A stretch of 64,000 nucleotides of DNA from Marivivens sp. LCG002. GTDB taxonomy: Bacteria > Pseudomonadota > Alphaproteobacteria > Rhodobacterales > Rhodobacteraceae. The notes beneath the pieces are model-generated. The model searched no databases. It was not told the origin of the DNA and saw only the letters and a list, made by a program, of their open reading frames with translations. How positions within the stretch are numbered: position 1 is the first letter of the stretch; every line of letters begins with the position of its first letter. The position numbers were made by a program, and so were the translations under genes. Shown one piece after another: positions 29,610-34,708 of the stretch. Location of the stretch: positions 2,468,001 to 2,532,000 of the forward strand of contig NZ_CP127165.1 in assembly GCF_030264275.1 (NCBI RefSeq). The letters are read 5' to 3'.

Positions 29610-31133
29610 ATGAACGATATGTCCAAGCCCGAAGCGGTTTACTTCACCTCGCCGTTCAAGGCCCGCTATGACAACTTTATCGGTGGCAAATTCGTTGCCC
29701 CGAACAGTGGTCAGTATTTCGACAACATCACCCCGATCAGCGGTGAGAAAATCTGTGAAGTCGCGCGTTCGAACAACGCCGACCTCGAAGCCGCTCTGGA
29801 CGCCGCCCATGCCGCCAAAGATACTTGGGGCAAATCGTCTGCTGCGCACCGCTCGAACATTCTTCTCAAGATCGCTGATCGTCTTGAAGAGAACCTCGAA
29901 CTTCTCGCCACCGCCGAAACCTGGGACAACGGTAAACCGATCCGCGAGACCGTGAATGCCGACATTCCGCTTTCGGTCGACCACTTCCGTTATTTTGCTG
30001 GCGTTCTGCGTGCCCAGGAAGGCACCATGTCCGAGATCGACAACGACACCGTTGCCTACCACTTCCACGAGCCTTTGGGCGTTGTCGGCCAGATCATTCC
30101 TTGGAACTTCTCGATCCTCATGGCCGCATGGAAGCTTGCGCCTGCGCTTGCAGCGGGTAACTGCATCATCCTCAAGCCCGCCGAACAGACCCCTGCCGCA
30201 ATCATGGTTCTGGTCGAGCTGATCGCCGATCTTCTTCCTGCGGGTGCGCTGAACGTGCTCAACGGCTTTGGCGGTGAAATCGGTGCGGCGCTCGCCACCT
30301 CGAACCGTATCGCCAAGATCGCCTTTACGGGGTCGACCGAAACGGGCCGCAAGATCATGCAGGCCGCAACGCAGAACCTGATCCCCGTGACACTCGAGCT
30401 TGGCGGCAAGTCCCCCAACATCTTCTTCTCGGATGTGATGGCAAGCGATGACGCCTTCCTCGACAAGGCCGTCGAAGGGTTCGTTCTCTTTGCCTTCAAC
30501 CAAGGCGAAGTCTGCACCTGCCCGAGCCGTGCTCTGATCCAGGAAGACATCTATGAAGAGTTCATCGCGCGCTGCATCGAGCGTGTCAAAGCGATCAAGC
30601 AAGGCGACCCGCGCGACATGAACACCATGGTTGGTGCCCAAGCCTCCAAGCAGCAGCACGACAAGATCATGTCCTATCTGACCATCGGCCGCGAAGAAGG
30701 CGCCGAAGTTCTGGTGGGCGGCGATGCAGCACGCTTTAACGGCGACATCGCGAACGGCTATTACATCCAGCCGACGATCCTCAAGGGCCACAACAAGATG
30801 CGCGTGTTCCAAGAAGAAATCTTTGGGCCTGTTGTGTCGGTCACGACCTTCAAGACCGAAGAAGAGGCGCTGCAGATCGCGAACGATACGATGTACGGCC
30901 TTGGGGCCGGTGTCTGGACCCGCGACGGCACCCGCGCCTATCGCTTCGGCCGCGAAATCGAAGCAGGCCGTGTCTGGGTGAACAACTATCACGCCTATCC
31001 TGCGCACGCGGCGTTCGGTGGTTACAAGCAATCGGGTATCGGCCGCGAGACCCACAAGATGATGCTCGACCACTATCAGCAGACCAAGAACATGCTGGTC
31101 AGCTACAACCCCAACAAGCTTGGTTTCTTCTGA
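29610..31133 (+). CDS. Aldehyde dehydrogenase (acetaldehyde/AcoD-ExaC type)
   Basis: A 507-residue NAD-dependent aldehyde dehydrogenase. The glycine motif [10 protein letters not shown], catalytic Glu in [12 protein letters not shown] and catalytic Cys in GEVCTCPSR are visible. The CTCPSR form and the N terminus [17 protein letters not shown] are typical of the AldB/AcoD/ExaC group that oxidises acetaldehyde and similar aldehydes. The start at 29610 has a perfect AGGAGG site 7 bases upstream. Context with an AcoR-like regulator supports a role in ethanol or acetoin-type metabolism. Confidence 0.92.
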
Positions 31134-31156
31134 TCGAGACCCAAGCTCTCCTCCGG

Positions 31157-31185
31157 CGGGGCCCTTCGGGGCCCCGTTTCCTTTT
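31157..31185 (+). terminator. Terminator after the aldehyde dehydrogenase gene
   Basis: CGGGGCCC (31157-31164) pairs with GGGCCCCG (31169-31176) with a UUCG-like loop, followed by TTTCCTTTT. It sits between convergent genes but only the plus strand side has the T-rich tail. Confidence 0.8.
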
Positions 31186-31234
31186 GGAGAACCAGTTCAA
31201 GGAATGCGGCTCGGTGAAACCCGCGCTGTTGCTC

Positions 31235-32392
31235 TCACTTGCGATCGCGCTGGATCGAAACGAGACAATGCGACTGGCGCGGATGTCTTGCGGGAATGTT
31301 GCGCGCAAGCGTGTCGACGCGGGTCGCACTTCGAAGGACTGCGACATTCGCTCCGTTGTCCGTCTCAACTGTGCGCGGGCCATGACCAGACGACAGGCAC
31401 GACCAAACAGCCCCGCTGTCATCCGAGACGGTGTGCCTTTCGGCTGTGTCCTGTCTTCCCGCTGTTGACGTGATCTGGCCTGTGTTGACAGAGCCCTGCG
31501 ACTTCTCGGAATGGGTTATGGTTCCGGTCGCTCCCACCGTTTTCAAATTCGCAGGCTTGGGTCGCGGTCTTTGGACCGAAACGGGGGCAAGTGTGACATT
31601 CACGCTGTGAAGATCGCTCGGGGTCGGCGGAACCAGATTGGTCGGCCCGTATCCGACAAGGGGAGGCGTTGCGACAGAGCTGACCGTCTGAACCGGTGCA
31701 AAGCCCGTCACAGTCGGTGCCGTCACAGGATGCACCGTCACAATGGGGCTATACCCCGTGAAGGACGGCGACTCTACCGGAACAACAGTCAGAACAGGTG
31801 CATAGCCCGTGATCGATGGGGTCGCCTGAGGATGGACCACGACGACAGGGCTATAACCGACAAAAGACGGGGTCGGCGTCGGCGAAAGGGTAACGGTCGG
31901 GGAAAACCCCGTGAACGACGGGGCGACCAATGGCGTTACTTGAATCGCGGGACTGTAACCACTGAAAGACGGCGCAGGAATTTGCTGCACGGGCGATGGA
32001 CTTACCCCCACGAAACTTTGCTGCGGAAGAGGCCGCACGATGTAGCCGGGGCTATAGCCGGTGATATCGGGCGCTTTGGACGAGGTCACTGTCGCGACAG
32101 GGCCAAACCCTGTGAACTGTTTGGGTGCGATCGGCTGCACGACGATCTTTTGGGTAGTCACGACAGGTGCCACCAAGGCACTGCCCGTCGAGCCCGTGCC
32201 CGTCGCAGTCGCCGTCGCGCCCCCGAAGGATGATCCGACAGACCCACCACAGAGCACCGCATCGTAGTGGGGGTTACTGGTCTGGCACCAGCCGTAATGA
32301 TTGCCGTTATTGGCATGGGCCGCCAATGGCAATGTCGCCAGAATGGCGAAAACGGCAGAGCGGGCTTTAAACGTCTTTGAAGGGTTGGTCAT
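31235..32392 (-). CDS. Secreted repeat protein coupled to a TpsB-type transporter, function unknown
   Basis: A 385-residue protein with a signal peptide (about residues 1-27, ending AAHA). Mature parts: a short N-terminal segment with two Cys (GWCQTSN, AVLCGG), a Gly/Ala/Thr-rich linker, ten repeats with the core [FIV]xG[YF][SAG]P spaced almost exactly 17 residues apart (Gly at 95, 112, 129, 145, 162, 179, 196, 213, 230, 247), a basic Pro/Thr region, and a C-terminal domain with Trp330, Cys332 (VWSCLSSGHG) and Cys376 (SHCLVSI). The start at 32392 lies 10 bases after the transporter's stop, so it is likely its cargo, but there is no hemagglutinin-type TPS domain. I do not recognise the family. 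Confidence 0.75.
   Translation of the reverse strand: MTNPSKTFKARSAVFAILATLPLAAHANNGNHYGWCQTSNPHYDAVLCGGSVGSSFGGATATATGTGSTGSALVAPVVTTQKIVVQPIAPKQFTGFGPVATVTSSKAPDITGYSPGYIVRPLPQQSFVGVSPSPVQQIPAPSFSGYSPAIQVTPLVAPSFTGFSPTVTLSPTPTPSFVGYSPVVVVHPQATPSITGYAPVLTVVPVESPSFTGYSPIVTVHPVTAPTVTGFAPVQTVSSVATPPLVGYGPTNLVPPTPSDLHSVNVTLAPVSVQRPRPKPANLKTVGATGTITHSEKSQGSVNTGQITSTAGRQDTAERHTVSDDSGAVWSCLSSGHGPRTVETDNGANVAVLRSATRVDTLARNIPARHPRQSHCLVSIQRDRK
31625..32125 (-). repeat. Ten tandem 51-bp coding repeats
   Basis: The part coding for residues about 90-256 of the secreted protein. Unit length is 17 codons (one unit has 16). The protein core is well kept while the DNA has drifted, so the array is old and held by selection on the protein, not a recent expansion. 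The plus strand shows it as recurring blocks such as GGGCTATA followed by CC. Confidence 0.8.
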
Positions 32393-32402
32393 CGCGCGCT
32401 CC

Positions 32403-33896
32403 TCACCACTGCTTGGAAATCGAAACATAGATTGCCGGATCACCTTTTGCGGTGCGGGGTCCCGCGACCAGAGGCACAGCAAAATAGGTTTGACCATAGA
32501 GGTCCTGTGGCAGGGTAAAGCGTAGACCTGCTCCAAGGGATGTCGACTTGGCCGAGCTCGCTGCGGTTGCGCCGAATGCATTTGAACGCGACCAGCCGAA
32601 ATCGACAAACCCGAAGGGCTCGAAAGCGATCCCGTTCGTGACCTGATTATAACCCTCCAAGGCCAACTCGACGCTCAAGGAAATACCGCTGTCTCCCGAT
32701 ATTTCATTGAAGTCATAAGCCCGGTTCGCTCCTCGCCCCCCGAGAACAAGTTTTTCGGTCGCGGGCAAGGCGTCAGAGCTTGACTGTCCCGTCGCCTGAA
32801 ACTCGATCCGTGCAGGTTGGTCGCCAAGTGTAAGCGGATGACCGTAGCCCACGCCGAAGCGGGCATAGTTGAATGTGGTCGAAGCGGAGGTATCGCCGCG
32901 CTGGGTGCCGAAACTCAGCGATGCCGCGTACTCCAGCGCCCCGCCCTGATCAAGCCGCCGTCCATCAAGCCAGATCAGACTTCCGACGGTGGCGGTCGAT
33001 TTGAAATTCGCGGTATTATTGGTCGCGCTCGAGCTTGCGCGGCGAATTTCCCCGATTAGGTAACCATAGCGATCAACCGTCCTAACCACAGGAACACCCG
33101 CGGCAACAATCGCCGTGTTTCCATTGAGGTCGGTTTGCTGCAAAATACCCATCGCATTGTAGCGGGCCTGAAGTGTTCCGAGATAACCCTCAAGATAGGC
33201 GCCGTTTCCACCCACTGGCGCACGATAGGAAATCGCGCCCGAGAACGAAGGGTTCTTTGTCGAGAACTCGTAGGACGTTCCAAAAGTCAGCTTGAGCAAA
33301 TCCCCTGCGGTCACCACATGATAGAAATGCTGGTCGATGGTTGCGGCAAGAGCAGAGGTCGGATTTCGCCCAGGCGTGTCGATTGTAATCTGCCCCCAGC
33401 TGTCCGAAAGCTGTTCGCCGATGATCCGTAATTCCGCACCACCGTTTGGATCAGGATAGGTGATCTCTGTTGTTGCAGAAACGGTCTCGATATCATCAGT
33501 GAGCATCAAGGCGCGCTCGATCTCGTCGATCGAGACAGCGTTGTCGGTCAGAAGCGGCGCTACATATTTTGCAACGAGATCGTGGACGTCCTTGTCCACG
33601 CCCTCGATGCGCACCGACCCGACACGGCCCTCGTCGACCACGATCGTCTTGCCATCCGAGGACAATGTGACATCTGCAAGAACATAGCCGTCTTCTTGGT
33701 AGATCTGACCGATCAATGCCGCGAGCCGCTGGCCATCGATCCCGCCGTCCATAAGAGCATAGTGCGCAGCATATTGGAGAAGCTCGGCGGCATCGTATTC
33801 GTGAACCCCAACCAAGTGAAACTGTGCGGGTGTCTCTTGCGCCATCGCATTATGCGCAAAGAGCGCAATTCCGCAGGAGGCTAGCCATATCTTCAT
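32403..33896 (-). CDS. ShlB/FhaC/HecB-type outer membrane transporter (TpsB)
   Basis: A 497-residue outer-membrane protein. A signal peptide (residues 1-19, NAMAQ), a POTRA-like region (about 50-130, with DGYVLADVTLSSDGKTIVVDEGRVGSV split over two strands) and a C-terminal beta-barrel ending in an aromatic residue (SKQW) are seen. The loop motif LGGRGANRAYDFNEISGDSG corresponds to the conserved RxY motif of loop 6. TpsB proteins move one partner protein across the outer membrane. The start at 33896 (MKIWLASC) begins the signal peptide. The likely cargo is the next gene downstream. Confidence 0.88.
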   Translation of the reverse strand: MKIWLASCGIALFAHNAMAQETPAQFHLVGVHEYDAAELLQYAAHYALMDGGIDGQRLAALIGQIYQEDGYVLADVTLSSDGKTIVVDEGRVGSVRIEGVDKDVHDLVAKYVAPLLTDNAVSIDEIERALMLTDDIETVSATTEITYPDPNGGAELRIIGEQLSDSWGQITIDTPGRNPTSALAATIDQHFYHVVTAGDLLKLTFGTSYEFSTKNPSFSGAISYRAPVGGNGAYLEGYLGTLQARYNAMGILQQTDLNGNTAIVAAGVPVVRTVDRYGYLIGEIRRASSSATNNTANFKSTATVGSLIWLDGRRLDQGGALEYAASLSFGTQRGDTSASTTFNYARFGVGYGHPLTLGDQPARIEFQATGQSSSDALPATEKLVLGGRGANRAYDFNEISGDSGISLSVELALEGYNQVTNGIAFEPFGFVDFGWSRSNAFGATAASSAKSTSLGAGLRFTLPQDLYGQTYFAVPLVAGPRTAKGDPAIYVSISKQW

Positions 33897-34138
33897 TCTG
33901 CCCTCGTCACTCGAACCGATACACTTTCCAAGACGATAACAAGCCATCGCGGAATTCGAAAACTCAAATTGAAACAATGTATGCATTGCGCCTGCAGGAT
34001 CATCGAATGTGTCATCCTGAACTCGGTTGAAATCCTCTGTCTCGGCGAACAACAAGGTCCGCAAAAAGAGCGGGCTGGAAAATGCTTTTGACTCGCGATG
34101 CCTTCGGGATCAGCATTTCACCGAAGCAGTTGGGGAAT

Positions 34139-34540
34139 ATGAGTTCGATGAACCTTTACCGTCTCGCAAAATTCGGGAGTGCCTTTTTCGCGCTTGCCTT
34201 CGCAGCCTCCTGCACAAGCACACAGAGGATCGAAGCGCCGGAAGGACGCGTCTATTGCGGCGGTGGCGCAATCAAGCGGGTGATCGAATACGGCAGCGAC
34301 GGGCGACGACAGGAAAGCATTTTCGTCCACATTTCAGAAGAGAACACGCTCACAGGAGAGAAGACGTTCCGTCGCGAAGAAGGCATAACCGCCTATTCAT
34401 GGTTCGGTAGCAACGAACCCGCCCCCGAGGGGTTCGTCAAAGCGCTTTTGCTCGACAACGGTGGCGAGATGCTGGTCTTTGAGGACGGTAATCAACATTG
34501 GATCGAATACGGCGACTACACCTATCGGCAATGTAATTGA
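34139..34540 (+). CDS. Small lipoprotein, function unknown
   Basis: A 133-residue protein with a lipoprotein signal: hydrophobic helix then FAASC with the lipid-bearing Cys, followed by TSTQRIEAPEG. The mature part has Cys in GRVYCGGG and a terminal RQCN, which could form a disulfide. The start at 34139 has GGGG 5 bases upstream; 34148 is an in-frame alternative, and the ORF that begins at 34082 is probably too long. It is divergent from the TpsB transporter with a 242-base gap. I do not recognise a family. Confidence 0.65.
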   Translation: MSSMNLYRLAKFGSAFFALAFAASCTSTQRIEAPEGRVYCGGGAIKRVIEYGSDGRRQESIFVHISEENTLTGEKTFRREEGITAYSWFGSNEPAPEGFVKALLLDNGGEMLVFEDGNQHWIEYGDYTYRQCN

Positions 34541-34631
34541 TGTCCCCAAAACATCGCCAGAAGCACAAACAAGCGCGTTGCATCGCGCACCCACGCCCGA
34601 AGGCGTTACTCAATTCGGAGATTTTGGGAAA

Positions 34632-34708
34632 TGGCGGACTGGGGAGGATTCGAACCCCCGACCCCTTGATTCGTAGTCAAGTACTCTATCCAACTGAGCT
34701 ACCAGTCC
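34632..34708 (-). tRNA. tRNA-Arg(ACG)
   Basis: On the minus strand a complete cloverleaf is seen: acceptor GGACTGG/CCAGTCC, D arm with AGCTCAGTTGGATAGAG, anticodon stem CTTGA/TCAAG with loop CTACGAA (anticodon ACG), T arm GGGGGTTCGAATCCTCC, discriminator G and an encoded CCA end. The ACG anticodon, read as ICG, is the major bacterial CGN arginine tRNA. It was not tested for other copies. Confidence 0.96.

Follow-up and report, generated by a model that had tools for sequence, protein, structure and literature searches.

A TpsB-type transporter paired with a small repeat protein that lacks a TPS domain: a probable non-canonical two-partner secretion system in Marivivens sp. LCG002 and its relatives

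Two adjacent genes of Marivivens sp. LCG002, with counterparts in marine alphaproteobacteria, probably encode a non-canonical two-partner (type Vb-like) system, in which an outer-membrane transporter of the TpsB type would export or display a small protein without a TPS domain; this protein would be disulfide-capped and recognised through its conserved ends. The genes lie within the 64,000-nucleotide stretch of DNA that was analysed (the window) and probably form an operon, in which the partner gene follows the transporter gene after exactly 10 nt. A ribosome-binding-like GAGGAG overlaps the stop codon of the transporter at their junction, GTGGTGAGGAGCGCGCGATG; a scan for sigma-70 promoters found nothing. 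The features of the locus are as follows.

32403..33896, minus strand: ShlB/FhaC-type outer-membrane transporter (TpsB), 497 aa (Pfam ShlB; AlphaFold2 model; FhaC as structural match)
33840..33896, minus strand: predicted Sec-type signal sequence of the transporter, residues 1-19, recognised by eye from a hydrophobic stretch and the AMA that precedes Q20
33408..33818, minus strand: two POTRA domains, residues ~27-163, with no plug helix ahead (model secondary structure; family alignment)
32406..33404, minus strand: 16-strand beta-barrel, residues ~165-497, with FVDFG in strand 13 and NRAY in loop 6 (model; alignment)
31235..32392, minus strand: small exported partner protein, 385 aa (ORF call; family conserved next to the transporter)
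32312..32392, minus strand: predicted Sec-type signal sequence of the partner, residues 1-27, recognised by eye from the AHA that precedes N28
32243..32311, minus strand: conserved N-terminal Cys motif NNGNHYGWCQTSNPHYDAVLCGG (C36, C48; alignments)
31619..32128, minus strand: ten tandem 17-residue P/G/V/T repeats, residues 89-258 (lag analysis)
31238..31495, minus strand: conserved C-terminal domain, residues 300-385 (C332, C376; alignment; also kept in genome G910)
34142..34540, plus strand: divergent lipoprotein-like gene upstream of the transporter, within an ORF at 34082-34540 (five further loci have relatives close to the pair)

Anatomy of the transporter and its partner

The transporter matches the Pfam family ShlB at 59.6 bits (cut-off 22.7), alongside a weak match to POTRA_2, and its AlphaFold2 model (pLDDT 86) predicts two POTRA domains and 16 barrel strands. 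The best structural matches of this model are FhaC (Z 31.9, rmsd 4.0, 418 residues) and CdiB (Z 30.1, rmsd 3.9, 431 residues), with TamA and BamA next. All 29 pair-type transporters compared match ShlB, and all 29 carry FxDxG in strand 13, where (F/G)xDxG is a TpsB hallmark; the loop-6 motif RG[YF] is found in 28 of them, the window's transporter having NRAY instead. Two POTRA domains, 16 strands, FxDxG in strand 13 and, in the relatives, RG[YF] in loop 6 are thus features held in common with TpsBs of the FhaC/CdiB type. An N-terminal plug helix, H1, has been described as a feature of TpsB proteins (PMC7644211), and here the transporter differs from the canonical TpsB as described: merely ~4-13 residues separate the signal cleavage site from POTRA1 in the transporter family (model and alignment), and H1 with its linker is therefore absent. 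Since the genome's canonical TpsB apparently lacks the helix too, its absence does not distinguish the pair and was dropped as a hallmark of the family.

These features bear on one alternative, namely that the transporter is an Omp85-type assembly factor, similar to TamA or BamA, whose role would be membrane insertion of the partner or of other proteins, not export. Such a role would agree with the shared superfamily, the combination of POTRA domains with a 16-strand barrel, the rank of TamA and BamA among the structural matches and the missing plug helix, which BamA and TamA also lack (PMC7644211). It is nevertheless quite improbable, as FhaC and CdiB are the closer structures (Z ~30), ShlB is matched by every member compared, there are two POTRA domains and the transporter has a single, dedicated operon partner.

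The partner matches no family in Pfam or NCBIfam. Its most conspicuous part consists of the ten 17-residue units, for which identity at lag 17 reaches 54 of 163 positions in the repeat region, whereas no lag in any of 5000 shuffles gave more than 35. On either side of the repeats lie conserved, Cys-containing parts: an N-terminal motif, GNHxGWCxGVGNPHxxxxCG, with two Cys 11-12 residues apart, and a C-terminal domain of ~86 residues with two Cys 43-46 apart, each present in 30/30 intact members of the set with two Cys pairs, such that all four Cys are invariant in the 30 intact mature proteins. The middle region between these ends varies from 160 to 487 residues (whole proteins, 289-616 aa), is rich in P, T, V and G with 16-29% proline, and holds few charges. 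Mean pairwise identity is 62% in the N-terminal motif, 50% in the C-terminal domain and 37% in the middle, compared with 49% for the transporter. The dN/dS ratio among close pairs of relatives is ~0.09-0.16, indicating that the partner is a real gene under selection at the protein level. Its structure model is of low confidence (pLDDT 48), too low to serve as a query for structural matches; a PDB sequence search with the partner profile gave one capsid match (E 0.82), which was regarded as meaningless, and a PHROGs search returned nothing significant. The TPS-domain profile (PF05860) matched 0/31 partners (the window's protein and 30 relatives). The preliminary description, which had placed a 385-residue exported-protein gene 10 nt after a ShlB/FhaC-like gene, was correct in coordinates and gap; the short proline/glycine repeats that it reported proved to be ten exact 17-residue units beyond what shuffling yields, and the profile check for a hidden TPS domain, negative in 31 family members, bears out its view that the partner has none.

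Distribution and genomic surroundings of the pair

Of 395 family genomes surveyed, almost every one representing a different genus, nine have a transporter orthologue (~40% identity in the eight relatives, E < 1e-80). The partner occurs in exactly the same nine genomes, adjacent and downstream each time (co-occurrence p 1.7e-18). An alignment-based scan of named genomes yielded 36 transporter loci, in Ruegeria, Celeribacter, Thioclava, Roseovarius, Roseivivax, Sulfitobacter, Shimia, Roseicyclus, Marivita and Aestuariivita and, outside these genera, in Nitratireductor, Roseibium, Sphingomonadaceae and Falsiroseomonas (Roseomonadaceae); a single-sequence scan of genome contigs with the window's protein had found nothing. 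Plasmids carried no member of the pair family, solely other TpsBs. From Rhodobacterales to Sphingomonadaceae and Roseomonadaceae, the partner adjoins the transporter in 34 of the 36 loci, starting -7 to +16 nt from the stop codon and mostly at +4 or +7. The two exceptions are L090, at a contig end, and L091, a 26%-identical outgroup whose 1887-residue neighbour resembles a canonical TPS protein by eye. Adjacency in 9/9 genomes out of 395 and in 34/36 loci rules out a chance neighbourhood, and the genes remain neighbours in relatives at every complete locus of the clade. Together with the lack of a TPS domain in 31 partners, this supports the earlier reading of an unusual secretion pair.

Several individual loci required separate handling. 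The partners of L057, L058 and L064, in which the Trp ahead of the first Cys is replaced by Phe or His, were for that reason taken from listed ORFs, and that of L064 is frameshifted or split; in L085, L086 and L089 a contig end interrupts the partner after the N-terminal motif; for L071, L084 and L085 the start that fitted the alignment was chosen among several; and the L087 transporter contains a stop codon. A weak partner match in G501 runs antisense inside another gene and was taken as chance, whilst G619 was rejected as a counterexample, being a truncated C-terminal remnant beside transposase-like sequence.

In a maximum-likelihood tree with six canonical and four beta-lactamase-paired TpsBs for comparison, all 31 pair-type transporters fall on one side of a branch with support of 100/99; several branches are long, and the order inside the tree is uncertain. 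The pair transporters are thus one clade, separate from the canonical TpsBs. Tree distances of transporter and partner are correlated (r 0.92), as would be given by any stable operon. In genome G910, from a distant alphaproteobacterial family, a transporter gene is followed without a gap by a gene for a 277-aa protein (L116 5870-8224) which keeps the C-terminal domain and an N-terminal Cys pair and has a different middle, without repeats. It is therefore the C-terminal domain, and not the repeats, that is the constant companion of the transporter.

The pair and the divergent lipoprotein-like gene fill 31132-34625 (~3.5 kb), flanked by an aldehyde dehydrogenase-like gene on one side and by tRNA-Arg (34632-34708) on the other. 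In three congeners, similarity stops on the left at 31131 and resumes on the right at ~34626, on another contig; the partner is absent from all three, and the transporter search covered one of them. The ~3.5 kb without a congener match beside tRNA-Arg, and the sporadic occurrence (9/395 genomes), fit and suggest acquisition of the pair by horizontal transfer, as a small island beside the tRNA gene. The lipoprotein-like gene, single-copy in the window's genome, has relatives (41-47% identical) close to the pair at three Ruegeria loci as well as in G055 and G141; it is possibly an accessory of the pair. Some Roseobacter/Ruegeria loci (L060 1868-5682, L066 8328-13110, L076 888-5790) also share a recurrent group of genes for secreted or membrane proteins near the pair, comprising an SdiA-regulated/phytase-like protein, a calcineurin-like phosphoesterase, a weakly phosphatase-like protein and a protein of ~490 aa without assigned function.

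Canonical cargo and other TpsB pairings

The TPS domain of canonical TpsA proteins (PF05860) is N-terminal and comprises ~250 residues. No protein with this domain was found in 8/9 genomes carrying the pair, compared with 18/22 family genomes with other TpsB relatives in which one is present (absent in 4/22; Fisher p 0.0005). The window's transporter needs no classical cargo, and most of its relatives have no access to one. The window's own genome encodes one canonical TPS protein of 1564 aa, outside the window (L109 3755-10511, G000:C1), where the TPS protein gene, an IalB-like gene and a TpsB gene follow one another in a tight run with overlapping ends. Since the TPS protein has its own TpsB, it is unlikely to be served by the window's transporter.

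The same observations weigh on the possibility of an ordinary two-partner system, in which either the partner hides a TPS domain or the cargo is a canonical TPS protein elsewhere, with the partner gene adjacent only incidentally. In its favour, the transporter is a true relative of TpsB proteins and the genome does encode one canonical TPS protein; the complete lack of TPS matches among the 31 partners, the conservation of the pair across genera, the tight run of that TPS protein with its own TpsB and the eight of nine pair genomes devoid of any TPS protein make it highly improbable.

A further alternative is that the partner is a periplasmic accessory (a plug, chaperone or gate), and that the transporter exports another protein encoded elsewhere. 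The small size and Cys-closed ends of the partner would suit this, and a separate plug is conceivable because the transporter itself lacks a plug helix. However, there is no common second gene next to the pair, a TPS protein is lacking from eight of the nine pair genomes, and the long, length-variable, repeat-rich middle resembles an exposed surface protein more than a chaperone; an accessory function is therefore considered unlikely.

A second group of non-canonical TpsBs was observed in four family genomes, where the transporter gene adjoins that of a signal-peptide-bearing serine hydrolase of the beta-lactamase family (PF00144; L117 5293-8334, L118 4831-7797, L119 6359-9324, L120 4475-7386). 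The genes are 9-13 nt apart or overlap, these TpsBs form a clade of their own (support 100/99), and none of the four genomes encodes a TPS-domain protein.

Proposed mechanism and relation to known systems

As in the two-partner secretion systems FhaB/FhaC, CdiA/CdiB, HxuA/HxuB and HMW1A/HMW1B, a transporter and a predicted exported partner are encoded side by side, and the pair most likely works like two-partner secretion. Canonical TpsA exoproteins are beta-helical and ~100-650 kDa in size (PMC5422565), whereas the partners described here, at 289-616 aa, depart from them both in size and in having no TPS domain; because the cargo side differs in these two respects, the pair is a variant and not a canonical member. 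MafA/MafB of Neisseria likewise combine a small substrate without a TPS domain with a dedicated outer-membrane partner, but MafA is a lipoprotein without POTRA domains or a barrel (PMC7738311), whereas the transporter here is an Omp85/TpsB member. Automatic annotation as ‘hemolysin secretion/activation protein’ misleads in this case, as there is no hemolysin-like partner. No description of such a pair was found in the openly accessible papers searched.

In the preferred reading, that of a type Vb-like system, Sec would carry both proteins across the inner membrane, and the four Cys of the partner would form two disulfides, one per conserved end. The transporter would then recognise a conserved end of the partner and not a TPS domain, most likely the C-terminal domain, perhaps together with the N-terminal Cys motif. 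The unfolded proline-rich region would pass through the pore and form a flexible or fibrous stalk on the cell surface, and a disulfide-closed end would act as a stopper, comparable to the C-terminal Cys anchor of HMW1 and HxuA. In HMW1/HxuA, a disulfide-closed C-terminal element has been proposed to hold the exported chain in the TpsB (PMC5422565); its counterpart here would be the ~86-residue conserved domain with Cys 43-46 apart, to which an N-terminal Cys pair is added. The partner is likely to be a cell-surface stalk or coat protein, and the proline-rich, length-variable character of its middle would be consistent with a surface filament. It may even be, although this is put forward tentatively and is rather doubtful, that the pair represents a distinct type V sub-type, in which a small terminal domain with disulfide bonds serves for recognition in place of a TPS domain, and a proline-rich chain threads a plug-less TpsB pore, held by Cys-closed stoppers at its ends.

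Type Vb substrates are regarded as being addressed by their TPS domain, and it is still debated how an energy-free pore moves a chain. If the sub-type is real, it would mean, together with the beta-lactamase-paired TpsBs, that TpsB specificity has left the TPS domain more than once. A substrate that is free of a TPS domain, small, proline-rich and simply built would reveal which part of the classical cargo is needed, and would provide a compact model for transport studies.
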